From NCBI GenBank assembly GCA_026413225.1, contig JAPMTP010000101.1, forward strand, positions 62,001 through 126,000: DNA of 64,000 nucleotides, written 5' to 3'. The notes below the pieces were generated by a model. That model was not told the origin of the DNA. It ran no database searches and saw nothing but the letters and a program-made list of their open reading frames with translations. This document shows, piece by piece, positions 1 to 58,484 of this stretch (positions are counted from its first letter, which is position 1; each line of letters begins with the position of its first letter). The stretch is from Otis tarda (Eukaryota > Chordata > Aves > Otidiformes > Otididae). The position numbers were made by a program, and so were the translations under genes.

Positions 1-628
1 ACAACAAAGTACAATACCCAAGAGGAACAATGAGAAAATAAGACCAAGGGCCTTAATGAAAAGCAAATAATAAATAGCAATGTCAAACAAAAACGTAGAT
101 AGAAAGGAAAATGTAAAAAGCAACAGCGCTAGGGAAAGCTGAGGGGGTGGCGCGGGAAAGGTTAAAAACTAATAATGCCGAAAGACGTAAAAGTAGACAA
201 TTTTTAAAGCCCGAGGTTTAGGAGAAGAACGAACACACAATACAGTCAGAGAAGTAAAAACGCAAACAGAGACAGATATTTGTAAAAGTGGTGGTGCTAA
301 AAACAGACAAGAAAAAAAAATGGAGAGAAAAAAAAGTAACCAAGGTAAAGGTGGACATGGGGGGAAAAAAAAAGACAAGGCATCAAGCATTAGGGAAATA
401 GAGACAGCAGAATGAAACAGAGATGTTAAAAGAATCTCTAAAAAGCCAGGATGCTAAGGAAAGACAAGAAATACCAAAAAAAAAAACCCAGCAAATATAA
501 TAATAGTCAGTCGGTGATGAGTATCAGGGAAATAGAGAAAAATTTCAAACCCAGAAATTACAAACTGTAACAAGGACCTAGAAAGACAGTTTTAAAATCA
601 AAGGCGTGAATACAGACAAGAAATATTT

Positions 629-638
629 TTTTTTGTTT
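629..638 (+). repeat. Conserved T tract in a purine-rich strand
   Basis: Every full unit has a single T run (AAATATTTTTTTTG and similar), an exception to the strong purine bias of the + strand. Units 2, 8, 10 and 13 have AAATATGTTTTTTG instead, and B units have seven to eight T followed by GTTTCAAAG. It serves as a subfamily marker. Confidence 0.75.
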
Positions 639-1361
639 TAAAGATAGCCAACAGAATAAAAGTACAGAGAAAACGGTAGATGCAAATAAGATTAAAGTTA
701 TAAGGAGAAAGCAGGTAGCGACAGCAAGAAAAAGAAAAATGATGAAAAGCAACATAAAGCGCAATGGCGCTATGGAAAAAAAAGAAAATATAATTAAAGA
801 TTATGATAGCAGACAAGGTCTAATTAGAAAATTTGAAAAGCAAAAGCACGAAAGTAATAGCAACATCCCACTAAAAATGCAGACAGATATACATTTTTTA
901 AAGTGACAGTAGAAAGGAAAAAGAAATAATTAGAACAAAAATGCAGAAAAATAAAGACAAAAGTGATAAAAGGAGACTCAGCATTTTAAAAGCATCAGGG
1001 ATTAAGGATATTAAAAAAATTAAACCCCAGCATGGGTAAACTAAAATGGAGCCAGAAAAAGAACCTAATTACATGACTGTAAAGAAGAAAGAGAAGAAAG
1101 AGATAAGTCAGAATCATTAGGAAAGTAAAGGCAAATACTGGAAAAAAATAAATGCCCAGGAAACAAATAGAAACCTAGAAAGAATAACTAAAAACCAAAG
1201 CTGCTAAGTAAGGACATATTACAACTAAAAAATAAGGGGACCAGCCACAAGAAAAGTATATAAAAAAGGCAAATGGTCATCAGGAAATAACGACAACAAC
1301 AACAGGCATTTCTGACACGCAACTAAACTGGAGAACTACAAAGGTGGCGTTCAAAAGCGAT

Positions 1362-1442
1362 GGCGCGGAGGGAGGATGAGAGAAGATTCAGGATCAAGAG
1401 AACAAGTTAAAGATAGCAATCGGGACAGAATTAGACAGAAAG
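1362..1442 (+). repeat. Invariant ~81-bp core of the unit
   Basis: From GGCGCGGAGGGAGGATGAG to AGAATTAGACAGAAAG I see no substitution or indel in any of the 19 copies compared by eye. This includes A and B units whose neighbouring sequence differs. It is CpG-containing and free of long homopolymers. No known protein-binding box was recognised; a CENP-B box does not match. Confidence 0.75.
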
Positions 1443-4400
1443 TTTTAAAACCAACGGGGAATAATGAAATTGGGTTAAAAATTCCCAAATAGCACGGTCC
1501 ACCTAAGGGACCTACGAAATTTGAAAAGCGAGGGCACTACAGATAGTCGGGACGTAATTAAAAAAAAATAAAGATAGCAAAATAAACGCAGAAACCAGAT
1601 AGGAGTAAAGAGAACATTTCAAAAGCAATTGAAGATGAAGGAAATAAGGAAAAAAATGAAAAGAAAAAACACCAAAACAAACCAGTGTCGTCCAACAAAA
1701 ATAAAAATGTACAAAGAGAATTTTCGAAGTGAGGGTTCTGTGGAAGAACAAGAAATTATTATGTATGAACTGCAAAGGGCATAAAAGTAGGCACTGAATG
1801 AATGCTGAAAAAGCAATGGGGAAATGGGAAATAAAATGAAAGCTAAAAATAGGGACAGCACGCTGAAAGAGACTTAGAAAGAAAGTTTCAAAACCCAGAA
1901 TGCTAAGGAAATAAATAGTTTCTTAAAAGACAGCAGAGGGAAAGAAAAGTAGACGCAGAAAATGGTGAGTGTTAGAGAAAATAAGACAAAAACTAAAAAA
2001 AAAAAAAAAAAAAAAAAATACAGACAGCTACCTAAAACAGATGTATTAAGCAAAATGAAGATTCGGGGTACTGAGCAAACGTGAGCAATAATTTAAAAAC
2101 CAAGAAATAAAGACAGCAAGCAAGATAAATGTACAAAATCTTTTAAATTACAGGGAGTAGGGAGATTAACACACAAAAAAAACAAACCACAAAGTTACAT
2201 CGAACTAAAACAGGGAGATAGAAAGAAAATCAAAAGGGCGCCAACAGTAACAGTAACGAAAGAGGAGAAAAAAAACGACATATAAAGAAGCTTTTAAGAG
2301 TGAGGCAGATCAGGGAAATACACGTTAAAATTTCTAACGAGGGACGATAAACTAACAGAAACGTAGCAAAAATTTCAAAGGCAGTGACACAAACAAAATG
2401 CAATAGCTAAATAACAGATGACAAAATAAGGACAGAGATAAAAGTAGAAAATTGAAATGGTTAGGGATGAGAGCAACATAGAGGAAACTTTTAAACCACA
2501 CAAGTACCTAAAACAGCAGTAGAAAGAAAATTTAGAAAGTAAAGGCACTTATTTCAACAGGAAAAAAATAAAAAATGTGAAGACAGCAAATAAAAGTAAA
2601 AAGAAAATGTCAAAAGCAACAGAGATTAAGAAAATGAAATAAAATCGATAAACACTAATGGCAAACTGAAACGGAAAGGTAGAAGTACAATTTACCATGC
2701 GAAGGGATGAAGAACAGAGGAATGACCAAATAGGGCTTGTAAACTACACAGATGAAATCACCGCAGCGCAATTTAAAACGTAGAAGACGGGCACAAAGAA
2801 ATGAAAAACACAGGCGGAGAACACGATGAGTGGAGATGAAAAGGCAAAATTTAGAACACAACAAAGTACAATTCCCAGAAGGAACAATGAGGAAATAAGA
2901 CCAAGGGCCTTAATGAAAAGCAAATAATAAATACCAATGTCAAACAAAAACGTAGATAGAGAAGGAAAATGTAAAAAGCAACAGCGCTAGGGAAAACTGA
3001 GGGGGTGGCGCGGGAAAGGTTAGAAACTAATAATGCCGAAAGACGTAAAAGTAGACAATTTTTAAAGCCCGGGGTTTAGGAGAAGAAAGAACACACAATA
3101 CAGTCAGAGAAGTAAAACGCAAACAGAGACAGATATTTGTAAAAGTGGTGGTGCTAAAAACAGACAAGAAAGAAAATGGAGAAAAGAATAAGTGACCAAG
3201 ATAAAGGTAGGGGCGGGGGGGGGACAGACAAGACATCAAGCAGTAGGGAAATAGAGACAGCAGAATGAAACAGAGATGTTAAAAGAATCTCTAAAAAGCC
3301 AGGATGCTAAGGAAAGACAAGAAATACCAAACAAAAAAACCCAGCAAATATAATAATAGTCAGTCGGTGATGAGTATCAGGGAAATAGAGAAAAATTTCA
3401 AAACCCAGAAATTACAAACCGTAACAAGGACCTAGAAAGACAGTTTTAAAATCAAAGGCGTGAATACAGACAAGAAATATTTTTTTTTGTTTTAAAGATA
3501 GCCAACAGAATAAAAGTACAGAGAAAACGGTAGATGCAAATAAGATTAAAGTTATAAGGAGAAAGCAGGTAGCGACAGCAAGAAAAAGAAAAAATGATGA
3601 AAAGCAACGTAAAGCACAATGGCGCTATGGAAAAAAAAGAAAATATAATTAAAGATTATGATAGCAGACAAGGTCAAATTAGAAAATTTGAAAAGCAAAA
3701 GCACGAAAGTAATAGCAACATCCCACTAAAATGCAGACAGATATACATTTTTAAAAGTGACAGTAGAAAGGAAAAAGAAATAATTAGAACAAAAATGCAG
3801 AAAAATAAAGACAAAAGTGATAAAAGGAGACTCAGCATTTTAAAAGCATCAGGGATTAAGGATATTAAAAAAATTAAAACCCAGCATGGGTAAACTAAAA
3901 TGGAGCCAGAAAAAGAACCTAATTACATGACTGTAAAGAAGAAAGAGAAGAAAGAGATAAGTCAGAATAATTAGGAAAGTAAAGGCAAATACTGGAGAAA
4001 ATAAATGCCCAGGAAACAAATAGAAACCTAGAAAGAATAACTAAAAACCAAAGCTGCTAAGTAAGGACATATTACAACTAAAAAATAAGGGGACCAGCCA
4101 CAAGAAAAGTATATAAAAAAGGCAAATGGTCATCAGGAAATAACAACAGCAACAACAACAAAAAAGGCATTTCTGACTCGCAATTAAACTGGAGAACTAC
4201 AAAGGTGGCGTTCAAAAGCGATGGCGCGGAGGGAGGATGAGAGAAGATTCAGGATCAAGAGAACAAGTTAAAGATAGCAATCGGGACAGAATTAGACAGA
4301 AAGTTTTAAAACCAACGGGGAATAACGAAATGGGGTTAAAAATTCCCAAATAGCACGGTCCACCTAAGAGACCTACGAAATTTGAAAAGCGAGGGCACTA

Positions 4401-5128
4401 CAGATAGTCGGGACGTAATTAAAAAAAAAAATAAAGATAGCAAAATAAATGCAGAAACCAGATAGGAGTAAAGAGAACATTTCAAAAGCAATTGAAGATG
4501 AAGGAAATAAGGAAAAAAATGGAAAAAAAAAAACCAAACCAGTGTCGTCCAACAAAAATAAAAATGTAGAAAGAGAATTTTCGAAGTGAGGGTTCTGTGG
4601 AAGAACAAGAAATTATTATGTATGAACTGCAAAGGACATAAAAGTAGGCACTGAATGAATGCTGAAAAAGCAATGGGGAAATGGGAAATAAAATGAAAGC
4701 TAAAAAAATAGGGACAGCACGCTGAAAGAGACTTAGAAAGAAAGTTTCAAAACCCAGAATGCTAAGGAAATAAATAGTTTCTTAAAAGACAGCAGAGGGA
4801 AAGAAAAGTAGATGCAGAAAAGTGGCGAGTGTTAGAGAAAATAAGACAAAAACTAAAAAAAAAAAGAAAAAAATACAGACAGCTACCTAAAACAGATGTA
4901 TTAAGCAAAATGAAGATTCGGGGTACTGAGCAAACGTGAGCAATAATTTAAAAACCAAGAAATAAAGACAGCAAGCAAGATAAATGTACAAAATCTTTTA
5001 AATTACAGGGAGTAGGGAGATTAACACAAAAAAAAAAAAAAAAAAACAAACCACAAAGTTACATCGAACTAAAACAGGGAGATAGAAAGAAAATCTAAAG
5101 GGTGCCAACAGTAATGAAAGAGGAGAAA

Positions 5129-5325
5129 TACCAAAAATCAAAGACGTGGAAGGAAAAATGCAGCCATAGAATAAACATTTCAAAAGCGCGAGGGGAGGAG
5201 GGAAATAAATGGGAAAAAAAAAAGACAAGACGTGACACAAACTTAACCGGAGACGTAGAAAAATGTAAAAAGCGAGGATGCTAAGGAAACAGAAGAAGAA
5301 CTTGGAGGAAATACATTGAGTGGGG
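5129..5325 (+). repeat. L-specific segment (~200 bp), present or absent between units
   Basis: L units have about 200 extra bases between GAAAGAGGAGAAA and GGGGAAAAAA, just left of the ATAAAGAAGCTTTTAAGAG landmark. In S units these flanks are joined directly (about 2250-2285). Other copies lie near 8190-8390, 11230-11430, 14585-14790, 20480-20680, 26385-26590, 29435-29640, 32490-32695, 35545-35745, 38600-38795 and 41655-41850. The segment starts two modules with GACGTGGAAGG and GACGTGACACAAAC. The similar sequences at its ends (GGAGAAA and GGGGAAA) would allow a slippage deletion, so S may derive from L. Confidence 0.88.
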
Positions 5326-5561
5326 AAAAAAAGAAGACGTATAAAGAAGCTTTTAAGAGTGAGGCAGATTAGGGAAATACACGTTAAAATTTCTAACGAG
5401 GGACGATAAACTAACAGAAACGTAGCAAAAATTTCAAAGGCAGTGACGCAAACAAAATGCAATAGCTAATTAACCGATGACAAAATAAGGACAGAGATAA
5501 AAGTAGAAAATTGAAATGGTTAGAGATGAGAGCAATATAGAGGAAACTTTTAAACCACACA

Positions 5562-5573
5562 AGTACATGTACC
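5562..5573 (+). repeat. 6-bp indel marker (AGTACATGTACC against AGTACC)
   Basis: L units have AGTACATGTACC and S units have AGTACC at the matching place (17868, 23769, 44960). The marker lies about 230 bp from the L segment, and in the copies I compared it always travels with it, so L and S are haplotype blocks rather than single indels. It is a useful tag for typing units. Confidence 0.85.
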
Positions 5574-5719
5574 TAAAACAGCAGTAGAAAGACAATTTAG
5601 AAAGTAAAGGCACTTATTTCAACAGGAAAAAAATAAAAAATGTGAAGACAGCAAATAAAAGTAAAAAGAAAATGTCAAAAGCAACAGAGATTAAGAAAAG
5701 GAAATAAAATCGATAAACA

Positions 5720-8700
5720 CTAATGGCAAACTGAAACGGAAAGGTAGAAGTACAATTTACCATGCGAAGGGATGAAGAACAGAGGAATGACCAAATAGGG
5801 CTTGTAAACTACACAGATGAAATCACCGCAGCGCAATTTAAAACGTAGAAGACGGGCACAAAGAAATGAAAAACACAGGCGGAGAACACGATGAGTGGAG
5901 ATGTAAAGGCAAAATCTAGAAAACAACAAAGTACAATACCCAAGAGGAACAATGAGAAAATAAGACCAAGGGCCTTAATGAAAAGCAAATAATAAATACC
6001 AATGTCAAACTAAAACGTAGATAGAGAAGGAAAATGTAAAAAGCAACAGCGCTAGGGAAAACTGAGGGGGTGGCGCGGGAAAGGTTAGAAACTAATAATG
6101 CCGAAAGACGTAAAAGTAGACAATTTTTAAAGCCCGGGGTTTAGGAGAAGAAAGAACACACAATACAGTCAGAGAAGTAAAACGCAAACAGAGACAGATA
6201 TTTGTAAAAGTGGTGGTGCTAAAAACAGACAAGAAAGAAAATGGAGAAAAGAATAAGTGACCAAGATAAAGGTAGGGGCGGGGGGGGGGGACAGACAAGA
6301 CATCAAGCAGTAGGGAAATAGAGACAGCAGAATGAAACAGAGATGTTAAAAGAATCTCTAAAAAGCCAGGATGCTAAGGAAAGACAAGAAATACCAAACA
6401 GAAAACCCCAGCAAATATAATAATAGTCACTCGGTGATGAGTATCAGGGAAATAGAGAAAAATTTCAAAACTAGAAATTACAAACTGTAACAAGGACCTA
6501 GAAAGACAGTTTTAAAATCAAAGGCGTGAATACAGACAAGAAATATGTTTTTTGTTTTAAAGATAGCAAACAGAATAAAAGTACAGAGAAAACGGTAGAT
6601 GCAAATAAGATTAAGGTTATGAGGAGAAAGCAGGTAGCGACAGCAAGATAAAGAAAAACGATGAAAAGCAACGTAAAGCACAATGGCGCTATGGAAAAAA
6701 AAAGAAAATATAATTAAAGATTATGATAGCAGACAAGGTCAAATTAGAAAATTTGAAAAGCAAAAGCACGCAAGTAATAGCAACATCCCACCAAAATGCA
6801 GACAGATATACATTTTTTAAAGTGACAGTAGAAAGGAAAAAGAAATAATTAGAACAAAAATGCAGAAAAATAAAGACAAAAGTGATAAAAGGAGACTCAG
6901 CATTTTAAAAGCATCAGGGATTAAGGATATTAAAAAAATTAAAACCCAGCATGGGTAAACTAAAATGGAGCCAGAAAAAGAACCTAATTACATGACTGTA
7001 AAGAAGAAAGAGAAGAAAGAGATAAGTCAGAATCATTAGGAAAGTAAAGGCAAATACTGGAAAAAATAAATGCCCAGGAACCAAATAGAAACCTAGAAAG
7101 AATAACTAAAAACCAAAGCTGCTAAGTAAGGACATATTACAACTAAAAAATAAGGGGACCAGCCAGAAGAAAAGTATATAAAAAAGGCAAATGGTCATCA
7201 GGAAATAACGACAACAACAACAGGCATTTCTGACACGCAACTAAACTGGAGAACTACAAAGGTGGCGTTCAAAAGCGATGGCGCGGAGGGAGGATGAGAG
7301 AAGATTCAGGATCAAGAGAACAAGTTAAAGATAGCAATCGGGACAGAATTAGACAGAAAGTTTTAAAACCAACGGGGAATAATGAAATTGGGTTAAAAAT
7401 TCCCAAATAGCACGGTCCACCTAAGAGACCTACGAAATTTGAAAAGCGAGGGCACTACAGATAGTCGGGACGTAATTAAAAAAAAAAAAAAAAAAAGATA
7501 GCAAAATAAATGCAGAAACCAGATAGGAGTAAAGAGAACATTTCAAAAGCAATTGAAGATGAAGGAAATAAGGAAAAAAATGAAAAGAAAAAACACCAAA
7601 ACAAACCAGTGTCGTCCAACAAAAATAAAAATGTACAAAGAGAATTTTCGAAGTGAGGGTTCTGTGGAAGAACAAGAAATTATTATGTATGAACTGCAAA
7701 GGACATAAAAGTAGGCACTGAATGAATGCTGAAAAAGCAATGGGGAAATGGGAAATAAAATGAAAGCTAAAAAATAGGGACAGCACGCTGAAAGAGACTT
7801 AGAAAGAAAGTTTCAAAACCCAGAATGCTAAGGAAATAAATAGTTTCTTAAAAGACAGCAGAGGGAAAGAAAAGTAGACGCAGAAAATGGTGAGTGTTAG
7901 AGAAAATAAGACAAAAACTAAAAAAAAAAAAAAAAAAAAAAATACAGACAGCTACCTAAAACAGATGTATTAAGCAAAATGAAGATTCGGGGTACTGAGC
8001 AAACGTGAGCAATAATTTAAAAACCAAGAAATAAAGACAGCAAGCAAGATAAATGTACAAAATCTTTTAAATTACAGGGAGTAGGGAGATTAACACACAA
8101 AAAAAACAAACCAAACCACAAAGTTACATCGAACTAAAACAGGGAGATAGAAAGAAAATCTAAAGGGTGCCAACAGTAATGAAAGAGGAGAAATACCAAA
8201 AATCAAAGACGTGGAAGGAAAAATGCAGCCATAGAATAAACATTTCAAAAGCGCGAGGGGAGGAGGGAAATAAATGGGAAAAAAAAAGACAAGACGTGAC
8301 ACAAACTTAACCGGAGATGTAGAAAAATGTAAAAAGCGAGGATGCTAAGGAAACAGAAGAAGAACTTGGAGGACACACATTGAGTGGGGAAAAAAAAAGA
8401 AGACGTATAAAGAAGCTTTTAAGAGTGAGGCAGATCAGGGAAATACACGTTAAAATTTCTAACGAGGGACGATAAACTAACAGAAACGTAGCAAAAATTT
8501 CAAAGGCAGTGACGCAAACAAAATGCAATAGCTAATTAACCGATGACAAAATAAGGACAGAGATAAAAGTAGAAAATTGAAATGGTTAGAGATGAGAGCA
8601 ATATAGAGGAAACTTTTAAACCACACAAGTACATGTACCTAAAACAGCAGTAGAAAGACAATTTAGAAAGTAAAGGCACTTATTTCAACAGGAAAAAAAA

Positions 8701-8786
8701 TAAAAAATGTGAAGACAGCAAATAAAAGTAAAAAGAAAATGTCAAAAGCAACAGAGATTAAGAAAAGGAAATAAAATCGGTAAACA
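5720..8786 (+). repeat. Array unit 2 (L type, subfamily A)
   Basis: A complete unit of 3067 bp. It shares rare variants with the unit at 39187: ACAGAAAACCCCAGC near 6400, AAACTAGAAATT near 6468, the shortened T tract AAATATGTTTTTTG near 6541, and CAGCAAGATAAAG near 6643. The two copies are therefore close relatives although about 33.5 kb apart. Confidence 0.94.
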
Positions 8787-11700
8787 CTAATGGCAAACTG
8801 AAACGGAAAGGTAGAAGTACAATTTACCATGCGAAGGGATGAAGAACAGAGGAATGACCAAATAGGGCTTGTAAACTACACAGATGAAATCACCGCAGCG
8901 CAATTTAAAACGTAGAAGACAGGCACAAAGAAATGAAAAACACAGGCGGAGAACACGATGAGTGGAGATGTAAAGGCAAAATCTAGAAAACAACAAAGTA
9001 CAATACCCAAGAGGAACAATGAGAAAATAAGACCAAGGGCCTTAATGAAAAGCAAATAATAAATAGCAATGTCAAACAAAAACGTAGATAGAAAGGAAAA
9101 TGTAAAAAGCAACAGCGCTAGGGAAAACTGAGGGGGTGGCGCGGGAAAGGTTAAAAACTAATAATGCCGAAAGTAGAAAATTTTTAAAGCCCGAGGTTTA
9201 GGAGAAGAACGAACACACAATACAGTCAGAGAAGTAAAACGCAAACAGAGACAGATATTTGTAAAAGTGGTGGTGCTAAAAACAGACAAGAAAAAAAATG
9301 GAGGAAAAAAAAAGTAACCAAGGTAAAGGTGGACATGGGGGGGGGAAGACAAGGCATCAAGCATTAAGGAAATAGAGACAGCAGAATGAAACAGAGATGT
9401 TTAAAGAATCTCTAAAAAGCCAGGATGCTAAGGAAAGACAAGAAATACCAAACAAAAAAACCCAGCAAATATAATAATAATAGTCAGTCGGTGATGAGTA
9501 TCAGGGAAATAGAGAAAAATTTCAAACCCAGAAATTACAAACTGTAACAAGGACCTAGAAAGACAGTTTTAAAATCAAAGGCGTGAATACAGACAAGAAA
9601 TATTTTTTTTTGTTTTAAAGATAGCCAACAGAATAAAAGTACAGAGAAAACGGTAGATGCAAATAAGATTAAGGTTATAAGGAGAAAGCAGGTAGCGACA
9701 GCAAGAAAAAGAAAAATGATGAAAAGCAACGTAAAGCACAATGGCGCTATGGAAAAAAAAAGAAAATATAATTAAAGATTATGATAGCAGACAAGGTCTA
9801 ATTAGAAAATTTGAAAAGCAAAAGCACGGAAGTAATAGCAACATCCCACTAAAATGCAGACAGATATACATTTTTTAAAGTGACAGTAGAAAGGAAAAAG
9901 AAATAATTAGAACAAGAATGCAGAAAAATAAAGACAAAAGTGATAAAAGGAGACTCAGCATTTTAAAAGCATCAGGGATTAAGGATATTAAAAAAATTAA
10001 AACCCAGCATGGGTAAACTAAAATGGAGCCAGCAAAAGAACCTAATTACATGACTGTAAAGAAGAAAGAGAAGAAAGAGATAAGTCAGAATCATTAGGAA
10101 AGTAAAGGCAAATACTGGGAAAAATAAATGCCCAGGAACCAAATAGAAACCTAGAAAGAATAACTAAAAACCAAAGCTGCTAAGTAAGGACATATTACAA
10201 CTAAAAAATAAGGGGACCAGCCAGAAGAAAAGTATATAGAAAAGGCAAATGGTCATCAGGAAATAACGACAACAACAACAGGCATTTCTGACATGCAACT
10301 GCAATGGAGAACTACAAAGGTGGCGTTCAAAAGCGATGGCGCGGAGGGAGGATGAGAGAAGATTCAGGATCAAGAGAACAAGTTAAAGATAGCAATCGGG
10401 ACAGAATTAGACAGAAAGTTTTAAAACCAACGGGGAATAACGAAATGGGGTTAAAAATTCCCAAATAGCACGGTCCACCTAAGAGACCTACAAAATTTGA
10501 AAAGCGAGGGCACTACAGATAGTCGGGACGTAATTCAAAAAAAATAAAGATAGCAAAATAAATGCAGAAACCAGATAGGAGTAAAGAGAACATTTCAAAA
10601 GCAATTGAAGATGAAGGAAATAAGGGAAAAAACTGAAAAAAAAAACCAAAACCAAACCAGTGTCGTCCAACAAAAATAAAAATGTACAAAGAGAATTTTC
10701 GAAGTGAGGGTTCTGTGGAAGAACAAGAAATTATTATGTATGAACTGCAAAGGGCATAAAAGTAGGCACTGAATGAATGCTGAAAAAGCAATGGGGAAAT
10801 GGGAAATAAAATGAAAGCTAAAAAAATAGGGACAGCACGCTGAAAGAGACTTAGAAAGAAAGTTTCAAAACCCAGAATGCTAAGGAAATAGTTTCTTAAA
10901 AGACAGCAGAGGGAAAGAAAAGTAGACGCAGAAAAGTGGCGAGTGTTGGAGAAAATAAGACAAAAACTAAAAAAAAAAAAAAAAAATACAGACAGCTACC
11001 TAAAACAGATGTATTAAGCAAAATGAAGATTCGGGGTACTGAGCAAACGTAAGCAATAATTTAAAAACCAAGAAATAAAGACAGCAAGCAAGATAAATGT
11101 ACAAAATCTTTTAAATTACAGGGAGTAGGGAGATTAACACAAAAAAAAAAAAAACCACAAAGTTACATCGAACTAAAACAGGGAGATAGAAAGAAAATCT
11201 AAAGGGTGCCAACAGTAATGAAAGAGGAGAAATACCAAAAATCAAAGACGTGGAAGGAAAAATGCAGCCATAGAATAAACATTTCAAAAGCGCGAGGGGA
11301 GGAGGGAAATAAATGGGAAAAAAAAAGACAAGACGTGACACAAACTTAACCGGAGATGTAGAAAAATGTAAAAAGCGAGGATGCTAAGGAAACAGAAGAA
11401 GAACTTGGAGGACACACATTGAGTGGGGAAAAAAAGACGACGTATAAAGAAGCTTTTAAGAGTGAGGCAGATTAGGGAAATACACGTTAAAATTTCTAAC
11501 GAGGGACGATAAACTAACAGAAACGTAGCAAAAATTTCAAAGGCAGTGACGCAAACAAAATGCAATAGCTAATTAACCGATGACAAAATAAGGACAGAGA
11601 TAAAATCTTTTAAATTACAGGGAGTAGGGAGATTAACACACAAAAAAAACAAACCACAAAGTTACATCGAACTAAAACAGGGACATAGAAAGAAAATCAA

Positions 11701-15100: not shown

Positions 15101-15180
15101 AATGTGAAGACAGCAAATAAAAGTAAAAGAAAATGTCAAAAGCAACAGAGATTAAGAAAAGGAAATAAAATCGATAAACA
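12123..15180 (+). repeat. Array unit 4 (L type, subfamily A)
   Basis: A complete unit of 3058 bp. Its first part carries a variant set (AATGCAATTTAAAAGG near 12233, AATTCCCAGAAGG near 12338) shared with the units at 18021 and 23921, all of which follow S-type blocks. With the next unit it forms a 5898-bp L+S dimer. Confidence 0.94.
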
Positions 15181-39100: not shown

Positions 39101-39186
39101 TAAAAAATGTGAAGACAGCAAATAAAAGTAAAAAGAAAATGTCAAAAGCAACAGAGATTAAGAAAAGGAAATAAAATCGATAAACA
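36133..39186 (+). repeat. Array unit 12 (L type, subfamily A)
   Basis: A complete unit of 3054 bp. Its start resembles unit 2 (GAAGACGGGCACAAAG near 36262). Its G tract near 36690-36708 resembles that of unit 8. A 91-codon plus-strand frame (37103-37378) is a composition shadow. Confidence 0.94.
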
Positions 39187-45115: not shown

Positions 45116-48001
45116 CTAATGGCAAACTGAAACGGAAAAGTAGAAATAACATTTACCACGCGAAGGGATGAAGGACAGAGGAATGACCAAATAGGGCTTG
45201 TAAACTACACAGATGAAATGACCGCAACGCAATTTAAAACGTAGAAGACAGGCACAAAGAAATGAAAAACACAGGCGGAGAACACGATGAGTGGAGATGA
45301 AAAGGCAAAATTTAGAAAACAACAAAGTACAATTCCCAGGAGGAACAATGAGAAAATAAGACCAAGGGCCTTAATGAAAAAAATAATAAATAGCAATGTC
45401 AAACTAAAACGTAGATAGACAGGAAAATGTAAAAAGCAACAGCGCTAGGGAAAACTGAGGGGGTGGCGCGGGGAAGGTTAGAAACTCATAATGCAAAAAC
45501 ACGTAAAAGTAGAAAATTTTTAAAGCCCGGGGTTTAGGAGAGGAAAGAACACACAATACAGTCAGAGAAGTAAAACGCAAACAGAGACAGATATTTGTAG
45601 AAGTGGTGGTGCTAAAAACAGACAAGAAAAAAATGGAGAAAAGAATAAGTGACCAAGATAAAGGTAGACACGGGGGGGAGGGGAGAAGACAAGACATCAA
45701 GCATTAGGGAAATAGAGACAGCAGAATGAAACAGAGATGTTAAAAGAATCGCTAAAAAGCCAAGATGCTAAGGAAAGACAAGAAATACCAAACAAAAAAA
45801 ACCCCAGCAAATATAATAATAGTCACTCGGTGATGAGTATCAGGGAAATAGAGAAAAAATTCAAAACCAGAAATTACAAACTGTAACAAGGACCTAGAAA
45901 GACAGTTTTAAAATCAAAGGCGTGAATACAGACAAGAAATATTTTTTTTGTTTCAAAGATAGCAAACAGAATAAAAGTACAGAGAAAACGGTAGATGCAA
46001 ATAAGATTAAGGTTATAAGGAGAAAGCAGGTAGCGACAGCAAGAAAAAGAAAAATGATGAAAAGCAACGTAAAGCGCAATGGCGCTATGGGAAAAAAAAA
46101 GAAAATATAATTAAAGATTATGACAGCAGACAAGGTCAAATTAGAAAATTTGAAAAGCAAAAGCACGAAAGTAATAGCAACATCCGACTAAAATGCAGAC
46201 AGACATAAATTTTTAAAAGAGACGGTAGAAAGGAAAAAGAAATAATTAGAACAAAAATGCAGAAAAATAAAGACAAAAGTGATAAAAGGAGACTCAGCAT
46301 TTTAAAAGCAACAGGGATTAGGGAAATGAAAAAAAAAACCACCATAGGTAAACGGAAATGGAGTCAGAAAAAGAAACTAATTACATGACTGTAAAGAAGA
46401 AAGAGAAGAAAGAAATAAGTCAGAATAATTAGGAAAGTAAAGGCAAATACTGGGAGAAAAAAATGCCCAGGAAACAAATAGAAACCTAGAAAGAATAACT
46501 AAAACCCAAAGCTGCTAAGTAGGGACATATTACAACTAGAAAATAAGGTTACCAACCACAAGAAAAGTATATAAGAAAGGCAAATGGTAATCAGGAAATA
46601 ACAACAACAACAACAACAAAAGGCATTTCTGACACGCAACTGAAATGGAGAACTACAAAGATGGCGTTAAAAAGCAATGGCGCGGAGGGAGGATGAGAGA
46701 AGATTCAGGATCAAGAGAACAAGTTAAAGATAGCAATCGGGACAGAATTAGACAGAAAGCTTTAAAACCAACGGGGAATAATGAAATTGGGTTAAAAATT
46801 CCCAAATAGCACAGTCCACCTAAGAGACCTACCAAATTTGAAAAGCGAGGGCACTACAGATAGTCGGGACATAATTCAAAAAAAAAAAAAGAAAGATAGC
46901 AAAATAAAGGCAGAAACCAGATAGGAGTAAAGAGAGCATTTCAAAAGCAATTGAAGATTAAGGAAATAAGGGGGGAAAAAAAAAAAAAAAAATTAAAAAA
47001 ATAAACAAAACAAAAAAACCAGTGTCATCCAACAAAAATAATAATGTAGAAAGAGAATTTTCAAAGTGAGGGTTCTGTGGAAGAGCAAGAAATTATTATG
47101 TCTGAACTGTAAAAGGCATAAAAGTAGGCACTGAATGAATGCTGAAAAGCAATGGGGAAATGGGAAATAAAATGAAAGCTAAAAGAATAGGGACAGCACG
47201 CTGAAAGAGACTTAGAAAGAAAGTTTCAAAACCGAGAATGCTAAGGAAATAACTAGTTTCTTAAAAGACAGCAGAGGGAAGAAAAGTAGGCGCAGAAAAG
47301 TGGCGAGTGTTAGAGAAAATAAGACAAAAACTAAAAAAAAAAAAAAAAAAAAAAATACAGACAGCTACCTAAAACAGATGTATTAAGAAAAATGAAGCAG
47401 TCGGGGCACTGAGGAAACGTGAGCAATAATTTGAAAACCAAGAAATAAAGACAGCAAGCAAGATAAATGTACAAAATCTTTTAAATTACAGGGAGTGGGG
47501 AGATGAACACACACACAAAAAAAAACCAAAACCACACCAAAGTTACATCAAACTAAAACATGGACGTAGAAAGAAAATCTGAAGGGCGCCAACAGTACCA
47601 GTAACGAAAGAGGAGAAAAAAGACGACGTATAAAGAAGCTTTTAAGAGTGAGGCAGATTAGGGAAATACACGTTAAAATTTCTAACGAGGGACGATAAAC
47701 TAACAGAAACGTAGCAAAAATTTCAAAGGCAGTGACGCAAACAAAATGCAATAGCTAATTAACCGATGACAAAATAAGGACAGAGATGAAAGTAGAAAAT
47801 GGAAATGGTTAGGGATGAGAGCAATATAGAGGAAACTTTTAAACCACACAAGTACCTAAAACAGCAGCAGAAAGAAAATTTAGAAAGTAAAGGCACTTCT
47901 TACAACAGGAAAAAATTAAAAATGTGAAGACAGCAAATAAAGGTAAAAAGAAAATGTCAAAAGCAACAGAGATTAAGAGAATGAAATAAAATCGATAAAC
48001 A
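45116..48001 (+). repeat. Array unit 15 (S type, subfamily B)
   Basis: A complete unit of 2886 bp with B markers (CCCAGGAGGAAC, CTCATAATGC, AAGGTTACCAACC). Near 46970-47000 a G run is followed by a long A run. AGAAAGCTTTAAAACC near 46755 creates an AAGCTT site that other copies lack at this place. Confidence 0.94.
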
Positions 48002-50896
48002 CTAATGGCAAACTGAAACGGAAAAGTAGAAATAACATTTACCACGCGAAGGGATGAAGGACAGAGGAATGACCAAATAGGGCTTGTAAACTACACAGAT
48101 GAAATGACCGCAACGCAATTTAAAACGTAGAAGACAGGCACAAAGAAATGAAAAACACAGGCGGAGAACACGATGAGTGGAGATGAAAAGGCAAAATTTA
48201 GAAAACAACAAAGTACAATTCCCAGGAGGAACAATGAGAAAATAAGACCAAGGGCCTTAATGAAAAAAAAAATAATAAATAGCAATGTCAAACTAAAACG
48301 TAGATAGACAGGAAAATGTAAAAAGCAACAGCGCTAGGGAAAACTGAGGGGGTGGCGCGGGGAAGGTTAGAAACTCATAATGCAAAAACACGTAAAAGTA
48401 GAAAATTTTTAAAGCCCGGGGTTTAGGAGAGGAAAGGACACACAATACAGTCAGAGAAGTAAAACGCAAACAGAGACAGATATTTGTAGAAGTGGTGGTG
48501 CTAAAAACAGACAAGAAAAAAATGGAGAAAAGAATAAGTGACCAAGATAAAGGTAGACACGGGGGGGAGAAGACAAGACATCAAGCATTAGGGAAATAGA
48601 GACAGCAGAATGAAACAGAGATGTTAAAAGAATCGCTAAAAAGCCAAGATGCTAAGGAAAGACAAGAAATACCAAACAAAAAAAACCCCAGCAAATATAA
48701 TAATAGTCACTCGGTGATGAGTATCAGGGAAATAGAGAAAAATTCAAAACCAGAAATTACAAACTGTAACAAGGACCTAGAAAGAGTTTTAAAATCAAAG
48801 GCGTGAATACAGACAAGAAATATTTTTTTTGTTTCAAAGATAGCAAACAGAATAAAAGTACAGAGAAAACTGTAGATGCAAATAAGATTAAGGTTATAAG
48901 GAGAAAGCAGGTAGCGACAACAAGAAAAAGAAAAATGATGAAAAGCAACGTAAAGCGCAATGGCGCTATGGAAAAAAAAAGAAAATATAATTAAAGATTA
49001 TGATAGCAGACAAGGTCAAATTAGAAAATGTGAAAAGCAAAAGCACGAAAGTAATAGCAACATCCGACTAAAATGCAGACAGACATAAATTTTTAAAAGA
49101 GACGGTAGAAAGGAAAAAGAAATAATTAGAACAAAAATGCAGAAAAATAAAGACAAAAGTGATAAAAGGAGACTCAGCATTTTAAAAGCAACAGGGATTA
49201 GGGAAATGAAAAAAAAAAACCACCATAGGTAAACGGAAATGGAGTCAGAAAAAGAAACTAATTACATGACTGTAAAGAAGAAAGAGAAGAAAGAAATAAG
49301 TCAGAATAATTAGGAAAGTAAAGGCAAATACTGGGAGAAAAAAATGCCCAGGAAACAAATAGAAACCTAGAAAGAATAACTAAAACCCAAAGCTGCTAAG
49401 TAGGGACATATTACAACTAAAAAAATAAGGTTACCAACCACAGGAAAAGTATATAAGAAAGGCAAATGGTAATCAGGAAATAACAACAACAACAGGCATT
49501 TCTGACACGCAACTGCAATGGAGAACTACAAAGGTGGCGTTCAAAAGCGATGGCGCGGAGGGAGGATGAGAGAAGATTCAGGATCAAGAGAACAAGTTAA
49601 AGATAGCAATCGGGACAGAATTAGACAGAAAGTTTTAAAACCAACGGGGAATAATGAAATTGGGTTAAAAATTCCCAAATAGCACAGTCCACCTAAGAGA
49701 CCTACCAAATTTGAAAAGCGAGGGCACTACAGATAGTCGGGACATAATTCAAAAAAAAAAAGAAAGATAGCAAAATAAAGGCAGAAACCAGATAGGAGTA
49801 AAGAGAGCATTTCAAAAGCAATTGAAGATTAAGGAAATAAGGGGAAAAAAAAAAAAACCCAAAAAAAAAAACCAAAAAAAAAAAAACCAAAAATAAAAAA
49901 AATAGCAAAACAAAAAAAACAGTGTCATCCAACAAAAATAATAATGTAGAAAGAGAATTTTCAAAGTGAGGGTTCTGTGGAAGAGCAAGAAATTATTATG
50001 TCTGAACTGTAAAAGGCATAAAAGTAGGCACTGAATGAATGCTGAAAAAGCAATGGGGAAATGGGAAATAAAATGAAAGCTAAAAGAATAGGGACAGCAC
50101 GCTGAAAGAGACTTAGAAAGAAAGTTTCAAAACCGAGAATGCTAAGGAAATAACTAGTTTCTTAAAAGACAGCAGAGGGAAGAAAAGTAGGCGCAGAAAA
50201 GTGGCGAGTGTTAGAGAAAATAAGACAAAAACTAAAAAAAAAAAAAAAAATACAGACAGCTACCTAAAACAGATGTATTAAGAAAAATGAAGCAGTCGGG
50301 GCACTGAGGAAACGTGAGCAATAATTTGAAAACCAAGAAATAAAGACAGCAAGCAAGATAAATGTACAAAATCTTTTAAATTACAGGGAGTGGGGAGATG
50401 AACACACACAAAAAAAAACCAAAACCACACCAAAGTTACATCAAACTAAAACATGGACGTAGAAAGAAAATCTGAAGGGCGCCAACAGTACCAGTAACGA
50501 AAGAGGAGAAAAAAAGACGACGTATAAAGAAGCTTTTAAGAGTGAGGCAGATTAGGGAAATACACGTTAAAATTTCTAACGAGGGACGATAAACTAACAG
50601 AAACGTAGCAAAAATTTCAAAGGCAGTGACGCAAACAAAATGCAATAGCTGATTAACCGATGACAAAATAAGGACAGAGATGAAAGTAGAAAATGGAAAT
50701 GGTTAGGGATGAGAGCAATATAGAGGAAACTTTTAAACCACACAAGTACCTAAAACAGCAGCAGAAAGAAAATTTAGAAAGTAAAGGCACTTCTTACAAC
50801 AGGAAAAAAATTAAAAATGTGAAGACAGCAAATAAAGGTAAAAAGAAAATGTCAAAAGCAACAGAGATTAAGAGAATGAAATAAAATCGATAAACA
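48002..50896 (+). repeat. Array unit 16 (S type, subfamily B)
   Basis: A complete unit of 2895 bp. It holds a local expansion of A runs separated by CC or CCC at about 49844-49918. Two small private deletions are visible: AAAGAGTTTTAAAATC near 48781 (others have AAAGACAGTTTT) and a one-base-shorter A run near 48738. Confidence 0.94.
49844..49918 (+). repeat. A-run/CC microsatellite expansion (unit 16)
   Basis: Runs of about 9-14 A are separated by CC or CCC several times in a row, where A-type units have only a short A run and one CC. A related but different version is at 52741-52815 in unit 17. This is probably replication slippage on a poly-A background. Confidence 0.85.
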
Positions 50897-53792
50897 CTAA
50901 TGGCAAACTGAAACGGAAAAGTAGAAATAACATTTACCACGCGAAGGGATGAAGGACAGAGGAATGACCAAATAGGGCTTGTAAACTACACAGATGAAAT
51001 GACCGCAACGCAATTTAAAACGTAGAAGACAGGCACAAAGAAATGAAAAACACAGGCGGAGAACACGATGAGTGGAGATGAAAAGGCAAAATTTAGAAAA
51101 CAACAAAGTACAATTCCCAGGAGGAACAATGAGAAAATAAGACCAAGGGCCTTAATGAAAAAAAATAATAAATAGCAATGTCAAACTAAAACGTAGATAG
51201 ACAGGAAAATGTAAAAAGCAACAGCGCTAGGGAAAACTGAGGGGTGGCGCGGGGAAGGTTAGAAACTCATAATGCAAAAACACGTAAAAGTAGAAAATTT
51301 TTAAAGCCCGGGGTTTAGGAGAGGAAAGAACACACAATACAGTCAGAGAAGTAAAACGCAAACAGAGACAGATATTTGTAAAAGTGGTGGTGCTAAAAAC
51401 AGACAAGAAAAAAATGGAGAAAAGAATAAGTGACCAAGATAAAGGTAGACACGGGGGGGAGGGGAGAAGACATCAAGCATTAGGGAAATAGAGACAGCAG
51501 AATGAAACAGAGATGTTAAAAGAATCGCTAAAAAGCCAAGATGCTAAGGAAAGACAAGAAATACCAAACAAAAAAAACCCCAGCAAATATAATAATAGTC
51601 ACTCGGTGATGAGTATCAGGGAAATAGAGAAAAATTCAAAACCAGAAATTACAAACTGTAACAAGGACCTAGAAAGACAGTTTTAAAATCAAAGGCGTGA
51701 ATACAGACAAGAAATATTTTTTTTGTTTCAAAGATAGCAAACAGAATAAAAGTACAGAGAAAACTGTAGATGCAAATAAGATTAAGGTTATAAGGAGAAA
51801 GCAGGTAGCGACAGCAAGAAAAAGAAAAATGATGAAAAGCAACGTAAAGCGCAATGGCGCTATGGAAAAAAAAAAGAAAATATAATTAAAGATTATGATA
51901 GCAGACAAGGTCAAATTAGAAAATGTGAAAAGCAAAAGCACGAAAGTAATAGCAACATCCGACTAAAATGCAGACAGACATAAATTTTTAAAAGAGACGG
52001 TAGAAAGGAAAAAGAAATAATTAGAACAAAAATGCAGAAAAATAAAGACAAAAATGATAAAAGGAGACTCAGCATTTTAAAAGCAACAGGGATTAGGGAA
52101 ATGAAAAAAAAAACCACCATAGGTAAACGGAAATGGAGTCAGAAAAAGAAACTAATTACATGACTGTAAAGAATAAAGAGAAGAAAGAAATAAGTCAGAA
52201 TAATTAGGAAAGTAAAGGCAAATACTGGGAGAAAAAAATGCCCAGGAAACAAATAGAAACCTAGAAAGAATAACTAAAACCCAAAGCTGCTAAGTAGGGA
52301 CATATTACAACTAAAAAATAAGGTTACCAACCACAGGAAAAGTATATAAGAAAGGCAAATGGTAATCAGGAAATAACAACAACAACAACAACAAAAGGCA
52401 TTTCTGACACGCAACTGAAATGGAGAACTACAAAGATGGCGTTAAAAAGCGATGGCGCGGAGGGAGGATGAGAGAAGATTCAGGATCAAGAGAACAAGTT
52501 AAAGATAGCAATCGGGACAGAATTAGACAGAAAGTTTTAAAACCAACGGGGAATAATGAAATTGGGTTAAAAATTCCCAAATAGCACAGTCCACCTAAGA
52601 GACCTACCAAATTTGAAAAGCGAGGGCACTACAGATAGTCGGGACATAATTCAAAAAAAGAAAGATAGCAAAATAAAGGCAGAAACCAGATAGGAGTAAA
52701 GAGAGCATTTCAAAAGCAATTGAAGATTAAGGAAATAAGGGGAAAAAAAAAAACCAAAAAAAAAAAAACCAAAAAAAAAAAACCAAAAATAAAAAAAAAT
52801 AGCAAAACAAAAAAAACAGTGTCATCCAACAAAAATAATAATGTAGAAAGAGAATTTTCAAAGTGAGGGTTCTGTGGAAGAGCAAGAAATTATTATGTCT
52901 GAACTGTAAAAGGCATAAAAGTAGGCACTGAATGAATGCTGAAAAAGCAATGGGGAAATGGGAAATAAAATGAAAGCTAAAAGAATAGGGACAGCACGCT
53001 GAAAGAGACTTAGAAAGAAAGTTTCAAAACCGAGAATGCTAAGGAAATAACTAGTTTCTTAAAAGACAGCAGAGGGAAGAAAAGTAGGCGCAGAAAAGTG
53101 GCGAGTGTTAGAGAAAATAAGACAAAAACTAAAAAAAAAAAAAAAATACAGACAGCTACCTAAAACAGATGTATTAAGAAAAATGAAGCAGTCGGGGCAC
53201 TGAGGAAACGTGAGCAATAATTTGAAAACCAAGAAATAAAGACAGCAAGCAAGATAAATGTACAAAATCTTTTAAATTACAGGGAGTGGGGAGATGAACA
53301 CACACACAAAAAAAACCAAAACCACACCAAAGTTACATCAAACTAAAACATGGACGTAGAAAGAAAATCTGAAGGGCGCCAACAGTACCAGTAACGAAAG
53401 AGGAGAAAAAAGACGACGTATAAAGAAGCTTTTAAGAGTGAGGCAGATTAGGGAAATACACGTTAAAATTTCTAACGAGGGACGATAAACTAACAGAAAC
53501 GTAGCAAAAATTTCAAAGGCAGTGACGCAAACAAAATGCAATAGCTGATTAACCGATGACAAAATAAGGACAGAGATGAAAGTAGAAAATGGAAATGGTT
53601 AGGGATGAGAGCAATATAGAGGAAACTTTTAAACCACACAAGTACCTAAAACAGCAGCAGAAAGAAAATTTAGAAAGTAAAGGCACTTCTTACAACAGGA
53701 AAAAAATTAAAAATGTGAAGACAGCAAATAAAGGTAAAAAGAAAATGTCAAAAGCAACAGAGATTAAGAGAATGAAATAAAATCGATAAACA
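50897..53792 (+). repeat. Array unit 17 (S type, subfamily B)
   Basis: A complete unit of 2896 bp. The A-run/CC expansion is also present (about 52741-52815), with different run lengths from unit 16. AAAATGATAAAAGG near 52051 and GTAAAGAATAAAG near 52165 are shared with unit 18. Confidence 0.94.
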
Positions 53793-56675
53793 CTAATGGC
53801 AAACTGAAACGGAAAAGTAGAAATAACATTTACCACGCGAAGGGATGAAGGACAGAGGAATGACCAAATAGGGCTTGTAAACTACACAGATGAAATGACC
53901 GCAACGCAATTTAAAACGTAGAAGACAGGCACAAAGAAATGAAAAACACAGGCGGAGAACACGATGAGTGGAGATGAAAAGGCAAAATTTAGAAAACAAC
54001 AAAGTACAATTCCCAGGAGGAACAATGAGAAAATAAGACCAAGGGCCTTAATGAAAAAAATAATAAATAGCAATGTCAAACTAAAACGTAGATAGACAGG
54101 AAAATGTAAAAAGCAACAGCGCTAGGGAAAACTGAGGGGGTGGCGCGGGGAAGGTTAGAAACTCATAATGCAAAAACACGTAAAAGTAGAAAATTTTTAA
54201 AGCCCGGGGTTTAGGAGAGGAAAGAACACACAATACAGTCAGAGAAGTAAAACGCAAACAGAGACAGATATTTGTAAAAGTGGTGGTGCTAAAAACAGAC
54301 AAGAAAAAAATGGAGAAAAGAATAAGTGACCAAGATAAAGGTAGACACGGGGGGAGGGGAGAAGACATCAAGCATTAGGGAAATAGAGACAGCAGAATGA
54401 AACAGAGATGTTAAAAGAATCGCTAAAAAGCCAAGATGCTAAGGAAAGACAAGAAATACCAAACAAAAAAAACCCCAGCAAATATAATAATAGTCACTCG
54501 GTGATGAGTATCAGGGAAATAGAGAAAAAATTCAAAACCAGAAATTACAAACTGTAACAAGGACCTAGAAAGACAGTTTTAAAATCAAAGGCGTGAATAC
54601 AGACAAGAAATATTTTTTTTGTTTCAAAGATAGCAAACAGAATAAAAGTACAGAGAAAACTGTAGATGCAAATAAGATTAAGGTTATAAGGAGAAAGCAG
54701 GTAGCGACAGCAAGAAAAAGAAAAATGATGAAAAGCAACGTAAAGCGCAATGGCGCTATGGAAAAAAAAAGAAAATATAATTAAAGATTATGATAGCAGA
54801 CAAGGTCAAATTAGAAAATGTGAAAAGCAAAAGCACGAAAGTAATAGCAACATCCGACTAAAATGCAGACAGACATAAATTTTTAAAAGAGACGGTAGAA
54901 AGGAAAAAGAAATAATTAGAACAAAAATGCAGAAAAATAAAGACAAAAATGATAAAAGGAGACTCAGCATTTTAAAAGCAACAGGGATTAGGGAAATGAA
55001 AAAAAAAAACCACCATAGGTAAACGGAAATGGAGTCAGAAAAAGAAACTAATTACATGACTGTAAAGAATAAAGAGAAGAAAGAAATAAGTCAGAATAAT
55101 TAGGAAAGTAAAGGCAAATACTGGGAGAAAAAAATGCCCAGGAAACAAATAGAAACCTAGAAAGAATAACTAAAACCCAAAGCTGCTAAGTAGGGACATA
55201 TTACAACTAAAAAATAAGGTTACCAACCACAGGAAAAGTATATAAGAAAGGCAAATGGTAATCAGGAAATAACAACAACAACAACAACAAAAGGCATTTC
55301 TGACACGCAACTGAAATGGAGAACTACAAAGATGGCGTTAAAAAGCAATGGCGCGGAGGGAGGATGAGAGAAGATTCAGGATCAAGAGAACAAGTTAAAG
55401 ATAGCAATCGGGACAGAATTAGACAGAAAGTTTTAAAACCAACGGGGAATAATGAAATTGGGTTAAAAATTCCCAAATAGCACAGTCCACCTAAGAGACC
55501 TACCAAATTTGAAAAGCGAGGGCACTACAGATAGTCGGGACATAATTCAAAAAAAAAGAAAGATAGCAAAATAAAGGCAGAAACCAGATAGGAGTAAAGA
55601 GAGCATTTCAAAAGCAATTGAAGATTAAGGAAATAAGGGGAAAAAAAAAAACCAAAAAAAAACAAAAATAAAAAAATAAACAAAACAAAAAAACCAGTGT
55701 CATCCAACAAAAATAATAATGTAGAAAGAGAATTTTCAAAGTGAGGGTTCTGTGGAAGAGCAAGAAATTATTATGTCTGAACTGTAAAAGGCATAAAAGT
55801 AGGCACTGAATGAATGCTGAAAAAGCAATGGGGAAATGGGAAATAAAATGAAAGCTAAAAAAATAGGGACAGCACGCTGAAAGAGACTTAGAAAGAAAGT
55901 TTCAAAACCGAGAATGCTAAGGAAATAACTAGTTTCTTAAAAGACAGCAGAGGGAAGAAAAGTAGGCGCAGAAAAGTGGCGAGTGTTAGAGAAAATAAGA
56001 CAAAAACTAAAAAAAAAAAAACCAAAATACAGACAGCTACCTAAAACAGATGTATTAAGAAAAATGAAGCAGTCGGGGCACTGAGGAAACGTGAGCAATA
56101 ATTTGAAAACCAAGAAATAAAGACAGCAAGCAAGATAAATGTACAAAATCTTTTAAATTACAGGGAGTGGGGAGATGAACACACACACAAAAAAAAACCA
56201 AAACCACACCAAAGTTACATCAAACTAAATCATGGACGTAGAAAGAAAATCTGAAGGGCGCCAACAGTACCAGTAACGAAAGAGGAGAAAAAAAGACGAC
56301 GTATAAAGAAGCTTTTAAGAGTGAGGCAGATTAGGGAAACACACGTTAAAATTTCTAACGAGGGACGATAAACTAACAGAAACGTAGCAAAAATTTCAAA
56401 GGCAGTGACGCAAACAAAATGCAATAGCTAATTAACCGATGACAAAATAAGGACAGAGATGAAAGTAGAAAATGGAAATGGTTAGGGATGAGAGCAATAT
56501 AGAGGAAACTTTTAAACCACACAAGTACCTAAAACAGCAGCAGAAAGAAAATTTAGAAAGTAAAGGCACTTCTTACAACAGGAAAAAAATTAAAAATGTG
56601 AAGACAGCAAATAAAGGTAAAAAGAAAATGTCAAAAGCAACAGAGATTAAGAGAATGAAATAAAATCCATAAACA
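53793..56675 (+). repeat. Array unit 18 (S type, subfamily B)
   Basis: A complete unit of 2883 bp and the last full-length copy. Its A/CC tract (about 55637-55690) is much shorter than in units 16 and 17. Confidence 0.94.
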
Positions 56676-58236
56676 CTAATGGCAAACTGAAACGGAAAAG
56701 TAGAAATAACATTTACCACGCGAAGGGATGAAGGACAGAGGAATGACCAAATAGGGCTTGTAAACTACACAGATGAAATGACCGCAATGCAATTTAAAAC
56801 GTAGAAGACAGGCACAAAGAAATGAAAAACACAGGCGGAGAACACGATGAGTGGAGATGAAAAGGCAAAATTTAGAAAACAACAAAGTACAATTCCCAGG
56901 AGGAACAATGAGAAAATAAGACCAAGGGCCTTAATGAAAAAAAAATAATAAATAGCAATGTCAAACTAAAACGTAGATAGACAGGAAAATGTAAAAAGCA
57001 ACAGCGCTAGGGAAAACTGAGGGGGTGGCGCGGGGAAGGTTAGAAACTCATAATGCAAAAACACGTAAAAGTAGAAAATTTTTAAAGCCCGGGGTTTAGG
57101 AGAGGAAAGAACACACAATACAGTCAGAGAAGTAAAACGCAAACAGAGACAGATATTTGTAGAAGTGGTGGTGCTAAAAACAGACAAGAAAAAAAAATGG
57201 AGAAAAGAATAAGTGACCAAGATAAAGGTGGACACGGGGGGAGGGGAGAAGACATCAAGCATTAGGGAAATAGAGACAGCAGAATGAAACAGAGATGTTA
57301 AAAGAATCGCTAAAAAGCCAAGATGCTAAGGAAAGACAAGAAATACCAAACAAAAAAAACCCCAGCAAATATAATAATAGTCACTCGGTGATGAGTATCA
57401 GGGAAATAGAGAAAAAATTCAAAACCAGAAATTACAAACTGTAACAAGGACCTAGAAAGACAGTTTTAAAATCAAAGGCGTGAATACAGACAAGAAATAT
57501 TTTTTTGTTTCAAAGATAGCAAACAGAATAAAAGTACAGAGAAAACTGTAGATGCAAATAAGATTAAGGTTATAAGGAGAAAGCAGGTAGCGACAGCAAG
57601 AAAAAGAAAAATGATGAAAAGCAATGTAAAGTGCAATGGCGCTATGGAAAAAAAAAAGAAAATATAATTAAAGATTATGATAGCAGACAAGGTCAAATTA
57701 GAAAATTTGAAAAGCAAAAGCACGAAAGTAATAGCAACATCCGACTAAAATGCAGACAGACATAAATTTTTAAAAGAGACAGTAGAAAGGAAAAAGAAAT
57801 AATTAGAACAAAAGTGCAGAAAAATAAAGGCAAAAGTGATAAAAGGAGACTCAGCATTTTAAAAGCATCAGGGATTAAGGATATTAAAAAAATAAAAAAA
57901 CAGCGTGGGTAAACGGAAATGGAGTCAGAAAAAGAACCTAATTACATGACTGTAAAGAAGAAAGAGAAGAAAGAAATAAGTCAGAATAATTAGGAAAGTA
58001 AAGGCAAATACTGGAAAAGATAAATGCCCAGGAAACAAATAGAAACCTAGAAAGAATAACTAAAAACCAAAGCTGCTATGTAAGGACATAGTACAACTGA
58101 AAAATAAGGGGACCAGCCACAAGAAAAGTATATAAAAAAGGCAAATGGCAATCAGGAAACAACAACAACAAAAAAAGGCATTTCTGACACGCAACTAAAA
58201 TGGAGAACTACAAAGATGAAATAAAATAGATAAATA
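56676..58236 (+). repeat. Array unit 19 (internal deletion of ~1.3 kb)
   Basis: This copy runs normally to the ACTACAAAGATG stretch, then jumps at 58216-58218 directly to the end-of-unit sequence GAAATAAAAT. About 1.32 kb is missing relative to unit 18 (1561 against 2883 bp). From about 57862 it carries A-like variants (GCATCAGGGATTAAGGATATT near 57867, AAGGGGACCAGCC near 58106) rather than the B forms. It therefore looks older or hybrid. Confidence 0.92.
58216..58218 (+). repeat. Deletion junction inside unit 19
   Basis: ACTACAAAGATG, normally followed by GCGTTAAAAAGC, is joined to AAATAAAAT, normally preceded by TTAAGAGAATG. ATG is common to both sides. About 1.3 kb of unit is missing at this point. 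Confidence 0.86.
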
Positions 58237-58484
58237 CTACTGGCAAACTGAAACGGAAAAGTAGAAATAAAATTTACCATGCAAAGGGATGAACAACAGA
58301 GGAATAACCAAATAGGGCTTGTAAACTACACAGATGAAATCACCGCAACGCAATTTAAAAGGTAGAAGACAGGCAGAAAGAAATGGAAAACACAGACAGA
58401 GCACATGATGAGTGGAAATGTAAAGGCAAAATTTAGAAAACAACCGAGTACAACTCCCAGAAGGAACAATGAGAAAATAAGACC
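58237..58484 (+). repeat. Array unit 20 (diverged terminal fragment)
   Basis: The first ~248 bases of a unit, visibly more diverged than internal copies: CATGCAAAGGGATGAACAAC, GAATAACC, CAGACAGAGCACATG. Homology ends after AATAAGACC at about 58484. This is the right edge of the array. Confidence 0.9.

Follow-up and report, generated by a model that had tools for sequence, protein, structure and literature searches.

What is the ~3-kb unit that dominates this locus, and what kind of chromosomal region would it build? A first-pass annotation had described the unit as a satellite of about twenty copies, possibly a macrosatellite or pericentromeric heterochromatin. Here, we examined the copies, their internal structure and the DNA beyond them across the window, that is, the whole stretch of 64,000 nucleotides.

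The Array and Its Copies

A BLAST search of the window with its first 2870 bases as query confirmed the roughly twenty head-to-tail copies of a ~3-kb unit. Nineteen full copies (u01 to u19) span 1 to 56878 and, together with a truncated copy and a 49-bp stub, make up a forward-strand array at 1..58488. At its left end the array runs up to the window edge, and 58488 bp is the part that lies within the window. Full units measure 2840–3336 bp and occur in two forms. The long form accounts for 11 of the 19 (ten units of 3046–3067 bp and u04 of 3336 bp), and the short form for eight (2840–2896 bp), all eight of which lack the same 194–195 bp. Over all 190 pairs, unit identity averages 96.6% and ranges from 93.3 to 99.6%. 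Relative to the majority, the insertions of at least 15 bases in full units are a 306-bp internal duplication in u04 (11450..11756, forward strand), bearing a second copy of the HindIII site, and insertions of 19–40 bp in u17–u19, units in which Tandem Repeats Finder reported A-rich runs. The array itself was not detected by this program because its longest period is 500. The edge of the array (56879..58488, forward strand) consists of the most diverged copy, u20, and the stub that closes the array at 58488; u20 is 1561 bp long (56879–58439) and carries an internal deletion, skipping from unit position ~1346 to ~2631.

The sequence AAGAAGCTTTTAAG occurs 20 times, with spacings of 3037–3066 bp, 2845–2896 bp and, once, 306 bp. 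The expectation that HindIII would cut about once per unit and yield ~2.9- and ~3.06-kb bands proved right: the array has 21 HindIII sites, close to one for each unit of ~3.05 or ~2.87 kb. From the array sequence, HindIII would also release a 306-bp fragment and cut u16 one additional time, at 46757. GC content is 33–36% per 2-kb window of the array. The whole array (1–58488) is strand-asymmetric, with an AT skew of ~0.5, a GC skew of ~0.25 and 71% purine in the unit.

Two Homogenised Layers and a Junction Unit

Comparison of the units disclosed two homogenised layers joined by a single recombinant unit. The first layer, u01–u14 (1..42448, forward strand), mixes long and short forms that are 96.9–99.6% identical over 91 pairs. 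The second, u16–u19 (45319..56878, forward strand), is 99.1–99.4% identical internally and 93.9–95.2% identical to u01–u14. Between them, u15 (42449..45318, forward strand) was compared with both layers window by window, in windows of 250 alignment columns; it is nearer the left layer in eight of eight windows before alignment column 2000 and nearer the right layer (95.7–99.8%) in all five scorable windows after it. Segment trees disagree on the position of u15, as recombination predicts. Within the first layer, at 12326–24123, u05 and u07 are 99.6% and u06 and u08 99.5% identical, a hint of a recent two-unit duplication, with other unit offsets in this layer averaging nearly as high or higher identity.

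Nearly identical tandem units are hard to assemble, and the length or order of the array could in principle be an assembly artefact. We regard this as highly improbable, since the units differ by 0.4–6.7% and the layers are ordered, with one recombinant unit between them; random mis-joins would mix the layers.

Hidden Monomers within the Unit

The ~3.04-kb unit is a cryptic higher-order repeat (HOR), a row of ~83-bp monomers in one orientation, so that the array repeats at two levels. In the 3044-bp unit consensus, an ungapped motif search located 31 sites, a median of 83.5 bp apart, which together score 566; when the seed step was coarsened to that of the controls, the real sequence scored 560, and six shuffles 270–302. 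At 83 bp, the unit length corresponds to ~37 monomers, 31 sites being scored. An example is the full long unit u02 (2858..5922, forward strand, 3065 bp), whose ~83-bp monomers have the majority core GAGAAATAGAAAGAAAATTTTAAAAGC, with agreement below 60% at several positions.

Because the motif had been trained on the same sequence that it scored, the search was repeated in hold-out form, controlled for dinucleotide composition. The model from the first half scored 163.6 on the second, with 10 sites (300 shuffles, 6.2 ± 7.5, maximum 46), and the model from the second half scored 97.8 on the first, with 8 sites (shuffles 5.6 ± 7.2, maximum 31). No opposite-strand motif site appeared in either test half. 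Autocorrelation of the motif score exceeded the threshold of 0.03 at 83 and 168 bp only (lags 20–495). A 15-base core, with up to two mismatches, matched the window 118 times, always on the forward strand, against 1.48 expected; the matches amount to about six per unit and one in the flank.

Self-comparison of the unit consensus gave 17 direct and no inverted weak matches. This count alone is not overwhelming, since 50 dinucleotide shuffles yielded 2.1 direct matches on average and as many as 15, and an AT skew of ~0.5 inflates low-complexity similarity. Such counts could also come from a unit that began as a transposable element or a piece of a gene and was later duplicated in tandem, its ~83-bp signal being a by-product of A-rich composition; we consider this very unlikely. 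The hold-out scores lie far outside their 300 shuffles, and the best self-match scores 47.3, whereas none of 50 shuffles exceeds 34.6. In addition, a Pfam search of six of the longer among the 140 array frames of at least 80 aa found nothing near the cut-off (best 12.6 bits against 25).

The monomers of the cryptic HOR are much decayed. Their cores are 63.5% identical to the consensus and 48.5% identical pairwise against a random expectation of 33%, values somewhat inflated because sites were picked by score; even so selected, they are much less alike than the units (mean 96.6%). Spacings between scored sites span 38 to 256 bp, and ~83 bp is therefore a decayed average. Plain fixed-lag base autocorrelation gave no 83-bp period, and Fourier power at 76–92 bp reached significance for none of WW, T, G|C and GC and was borderline for TTT (0.05); the missing signal is as expected if indels blurred the register. 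AA/TT phasing at 10–11 bp was not found (power 1.3 times the mean).

A shorter period was also considered. Runs of TTT showed a 38–46-bp period (0 of 100 shuffles), four other measures giving 0.06–0.13; TTT pair distances are in excess near 44, 80 and 160, and some scored monomer sites lie 38–49 bp apart. Autocorrelation of the motif score has no peak at 38–46 bp, its main periods being 83 and 168, and the hint from 42–44-bp TTT spacing is weak. In the CNM repeat, as described in PMC6435179, A3-5 and T3-5 clusters lie 6–7 bp apart. Clusters of this type are not enriched here: the T-then-A order was counted 7 times, where 300 shuffles give 6.2, and the A-then-T order likewise 7 times, where they give 7.5. 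Assignment to CNM was rejected for this reason.

The Array Edge and Flank

Past 58488, the 3-kb period stops and purine tracts (71–77%) alternate with islands of 44–48% purine. Degenerate, non-amplified monomers continue beyond the edge to ~60.3 kb, with forward-strand sites of score at least 5 in 58506..60290 (at 58506, 58758, 59873, 59946, 60031, 60068, 60185 and 60255). The motif is significant in the flank tracts f0 (P 0.005) and f1 (0 of 200 shuffles) and not in f2 (P 0.215) or f3 (P 0.07), though these are as purine-rich; the four tracts jointly score 99.6 against 12.3 ± 9.6 (0 of 300 shuffles). In the non-satellite islands that served as controls and were expected to lack the motif, P was 1.0 (i1), 0.07 (i3) and 0.08 (i4), with one weak site each in i3 and i4. 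The tracts at 61260–61990 and 63240–64000 are 73–77% purine, like the array, without a significant 83-bp monomer signal.

Two decayed dispersed repeats are inserted in the flank. The first, at 59110..59465 (forward strand), interrupts a purine-rich tract. Two of its forward frames match the database protein P0004, and a third does so at E 0.47. In the second, at 60766..61277 (forward strand), the matches are to P0001 (three forward frames), P0003 (two) and P0002 (one). Matches to three of the four proteins (P0001, P0003 and P0004) thus run through two or three frames, which identifies decayed dispersed repeats rather than genes, and protein-coding islands were rejected. No match to CR1 3'-end motifs was obtained, and relatives of the island peptides were not confirmed in viral_contigs or genome_contigs. 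A third island, at 61990–63240, is non-skewed and GC-richer; one reverse-strand ORF in it, at 62859–63209, had no homologue in the protein database.

Strand asymmetry persists in the purine tracts of the flank and is absent from the inserted islands. The lack of skew in these islands speaks against a mutational bias of the region as the source of the purine skew. Strand-asymmetric substitution was rejected as the cause of this skew as well, the 53 singleton changes in u01–u19 displaying no clear asymmetry. CpG decay offered too few changes to use, with two CpG transitions (three CpG changes in total) at 119 CpG positions.

Searches for Coding, RNA and Chromosomal Landmarks

The longest stop-to-stop frame in the array is 160 aa, and no Rfam family reaches its gathering score; together with the Pfam search of six frames, these data give no sign of a coded product of the array. 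Five flank ORFs reached at best 14.3 bits against the Pfam cut-off of 25, and the region scanned for tRNA (56000–64000) contained none. The CENP-B box has no match on either strand. A telomere-repeat array is absent from the window, in which 40 single TTAGGG copies lie at least 151 bp apart and CCCTAA does not occur. There is one G4-like match per strand. An exact 26-mer of the unit occurs in neither viral_contigs nor genome_contigs, and one unit compared with phages gave no match. The available text of PMC3091757, PMC6435179, PMC7397634, PMC9906895 and PMC4301066 does not provide the CNM or Cen1–11 sequences, and the unit is not thereby unpublished.

Comparison with Known Satellites

The unit had been called far longer than the commonly described bird satellites. 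This holds against the 41-bp and ~190-bp families and fails against the chicken chromosome-2 centromere (CEN2) satellite, which is itself a 3-kb HindIII unit (PMC5855756). Chromosome-specific satellites are reported there, and in PMC9974502, for chicken macrochromosome centromeres. Like CEN2 as described in PMC5855756, the present repeat has a ~3-kb unit, about one HindIII cut and a long tandem array. By size and enzyme, the CEN2 repeat is the closest published relative, a likeness drawn from its description. Shang 2010 is reportedly the paper with the CEN2 satellite sequences.

The unit could even be the published CEN2 satellite itself or, in a close galliform, the direct orthologue of that satellite. 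We judge this unlikely, and it would be a special case of the HOR reading rather than exclusive of it. ClaI is blocked by CpG methylation, and a mismatch with CEN2 in the sites of this enzyme is therefore not decisive. The mismatch is that the present array has 15 ClaI sites, whereas the chicken array is left uncut by ClaI at ~700 kb to >1 Mb (PMC5855756); chicken repeats, Cen repeats included, are given as 50–60% methylated in PMC9604247. In favour of identity are the CEN2-specific HindIII unit of PMC5855756, set beside about one cut per unit here, and the younger expansions at the centromere centre of chicken chromosomes 2–4 described in PMC9974502, compatible with the most diverged copy lying at the edge.

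Chicken CNM HORs of 26–98 monomers with layered expansion are described in PMC9974502, and they resemble the present kb-scale unit of short diverged monomers (here ~37) and its layers; unlike the 41-bp monomer of CNM, the present one is ~83 bp and lacks enrichment of A3-5/T3-5 clusters. Short-monomer tandem DNA also characterises galliform heterochromatin, as in chicken W sate-21 (PMC9974502) and PO41 (PMC3091757). In contrast to these, the sate-21 motif TTTTCnnnnnGAAAA given in PMC9974502 has no match in the window, and PO41 is stated to be 63% GC (PMC3091757) against 33–36% in the present array. Given the 26–98 monomers of chicken CNM HORs, a ~37-monomer HOR is of a known kind. The unit would be a new satellite of this already known type, unless it is the published CEN2 repeat.

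In human alpha satellite, homogenised HOR arrays of a 171-bp monomer have monomeric flanks. The present locus is alike in its homogenised HOR array, at whose edge lie an older layer and monomers that were not amplified, and in having dispersed repeats in the flank only; unlike alpha satellite, it shows no 171-bp monomer and its array lacks the CENP-B box. Layered expansion of alpha-satellite arrays is noted in PMC9974502.

The content of the window does not by itself fix the location, and the same amplification history could have produced a macrosatellite away from centromeres, in subtelomeric, sex-chromosome or arm heterochromatin. Large tandem units of this sort exist: on chicken W, a 5,648-bp HINT1W unit is present in 52 tandem copies (PMC9974502). 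In contrast to that amplicon, no gene was recognised in the present unit, as judged from six array frames against Pfam. Nor does the window hold a telomere-repeat array. Moreover, the decayed monomeric flank with dispersed repeats resembles the transition zones of pericentromeres. Macrosatellites do occur off centromeres too, and we rate such a location for this array as somewhat unlikely.

Discussion

On balance, we favour a HOR satellite array of the type that builds regional centromeres and pericentromeric heterochromatin, derived from ancient decayed ~83-bp monomers of which one ~3-kb stretch was re-amplified in layers. The starting point would have been an ancient tandem array whose ~83-bp monomers, strand-asymmetric at 71% purine, decayed until little likeness was left among them. 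A segment of ~3 kb, equivalent to ~37 monomers in length, would then have been amplified head to tail, repeatedly, driven by unequal exchange or a similar copying process, and successive waves of amplification would have left layers of differing age. The copying presumably involved homologous recombination, and the host is presumably a bird. An architecture like that of alpha satellite would be consistent with a centromere or pericentromere, and the locus is probably one of these; its role would be exerted through constitutive heterochromatin or as a kinetochore platform, not through a coded product.

The earlier proposal of a macrosatellite or pericentromeric heterochromatin agrees with this architecture, namely the homogenised array, the diverged edge copy and the decayed-monomer flank with dispersed repeats, and had overlooked that the unit is built of ~83-bp monomers. 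To that first-pass annotation, the present analysis adds the cryptic ~83-bp HOR structure, the layers and the edge.

These observations suggest that large satellite units regarded as unique can be HORs whose monomers have decayed so far that neither Tandem Repeats Finder nor plain autocorrelation detects them. The locus also provides a clean edge of a HOR array, including two layers and their junction unit. A wider and more tentative possibility, which may well prove wrong, concerns the kb-scale, "chromosome-specific" satellites at bird centromeres. These would be cryptic HORs, each a decayed array of short monomers that was frozen and then re-amplified long after the monomers had lost recognisable similarity; the ~83-bp monomer of the present unit might be double a 41-bp ancestor. 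If true, the centromere satellites of macrochromosomes would be linked by descent to the short satellites of microchromosomes. If general, this would mean that the centromere satellites of birds, short and long, share an origin, and it would offer a way to order their rounds of re-amplification.
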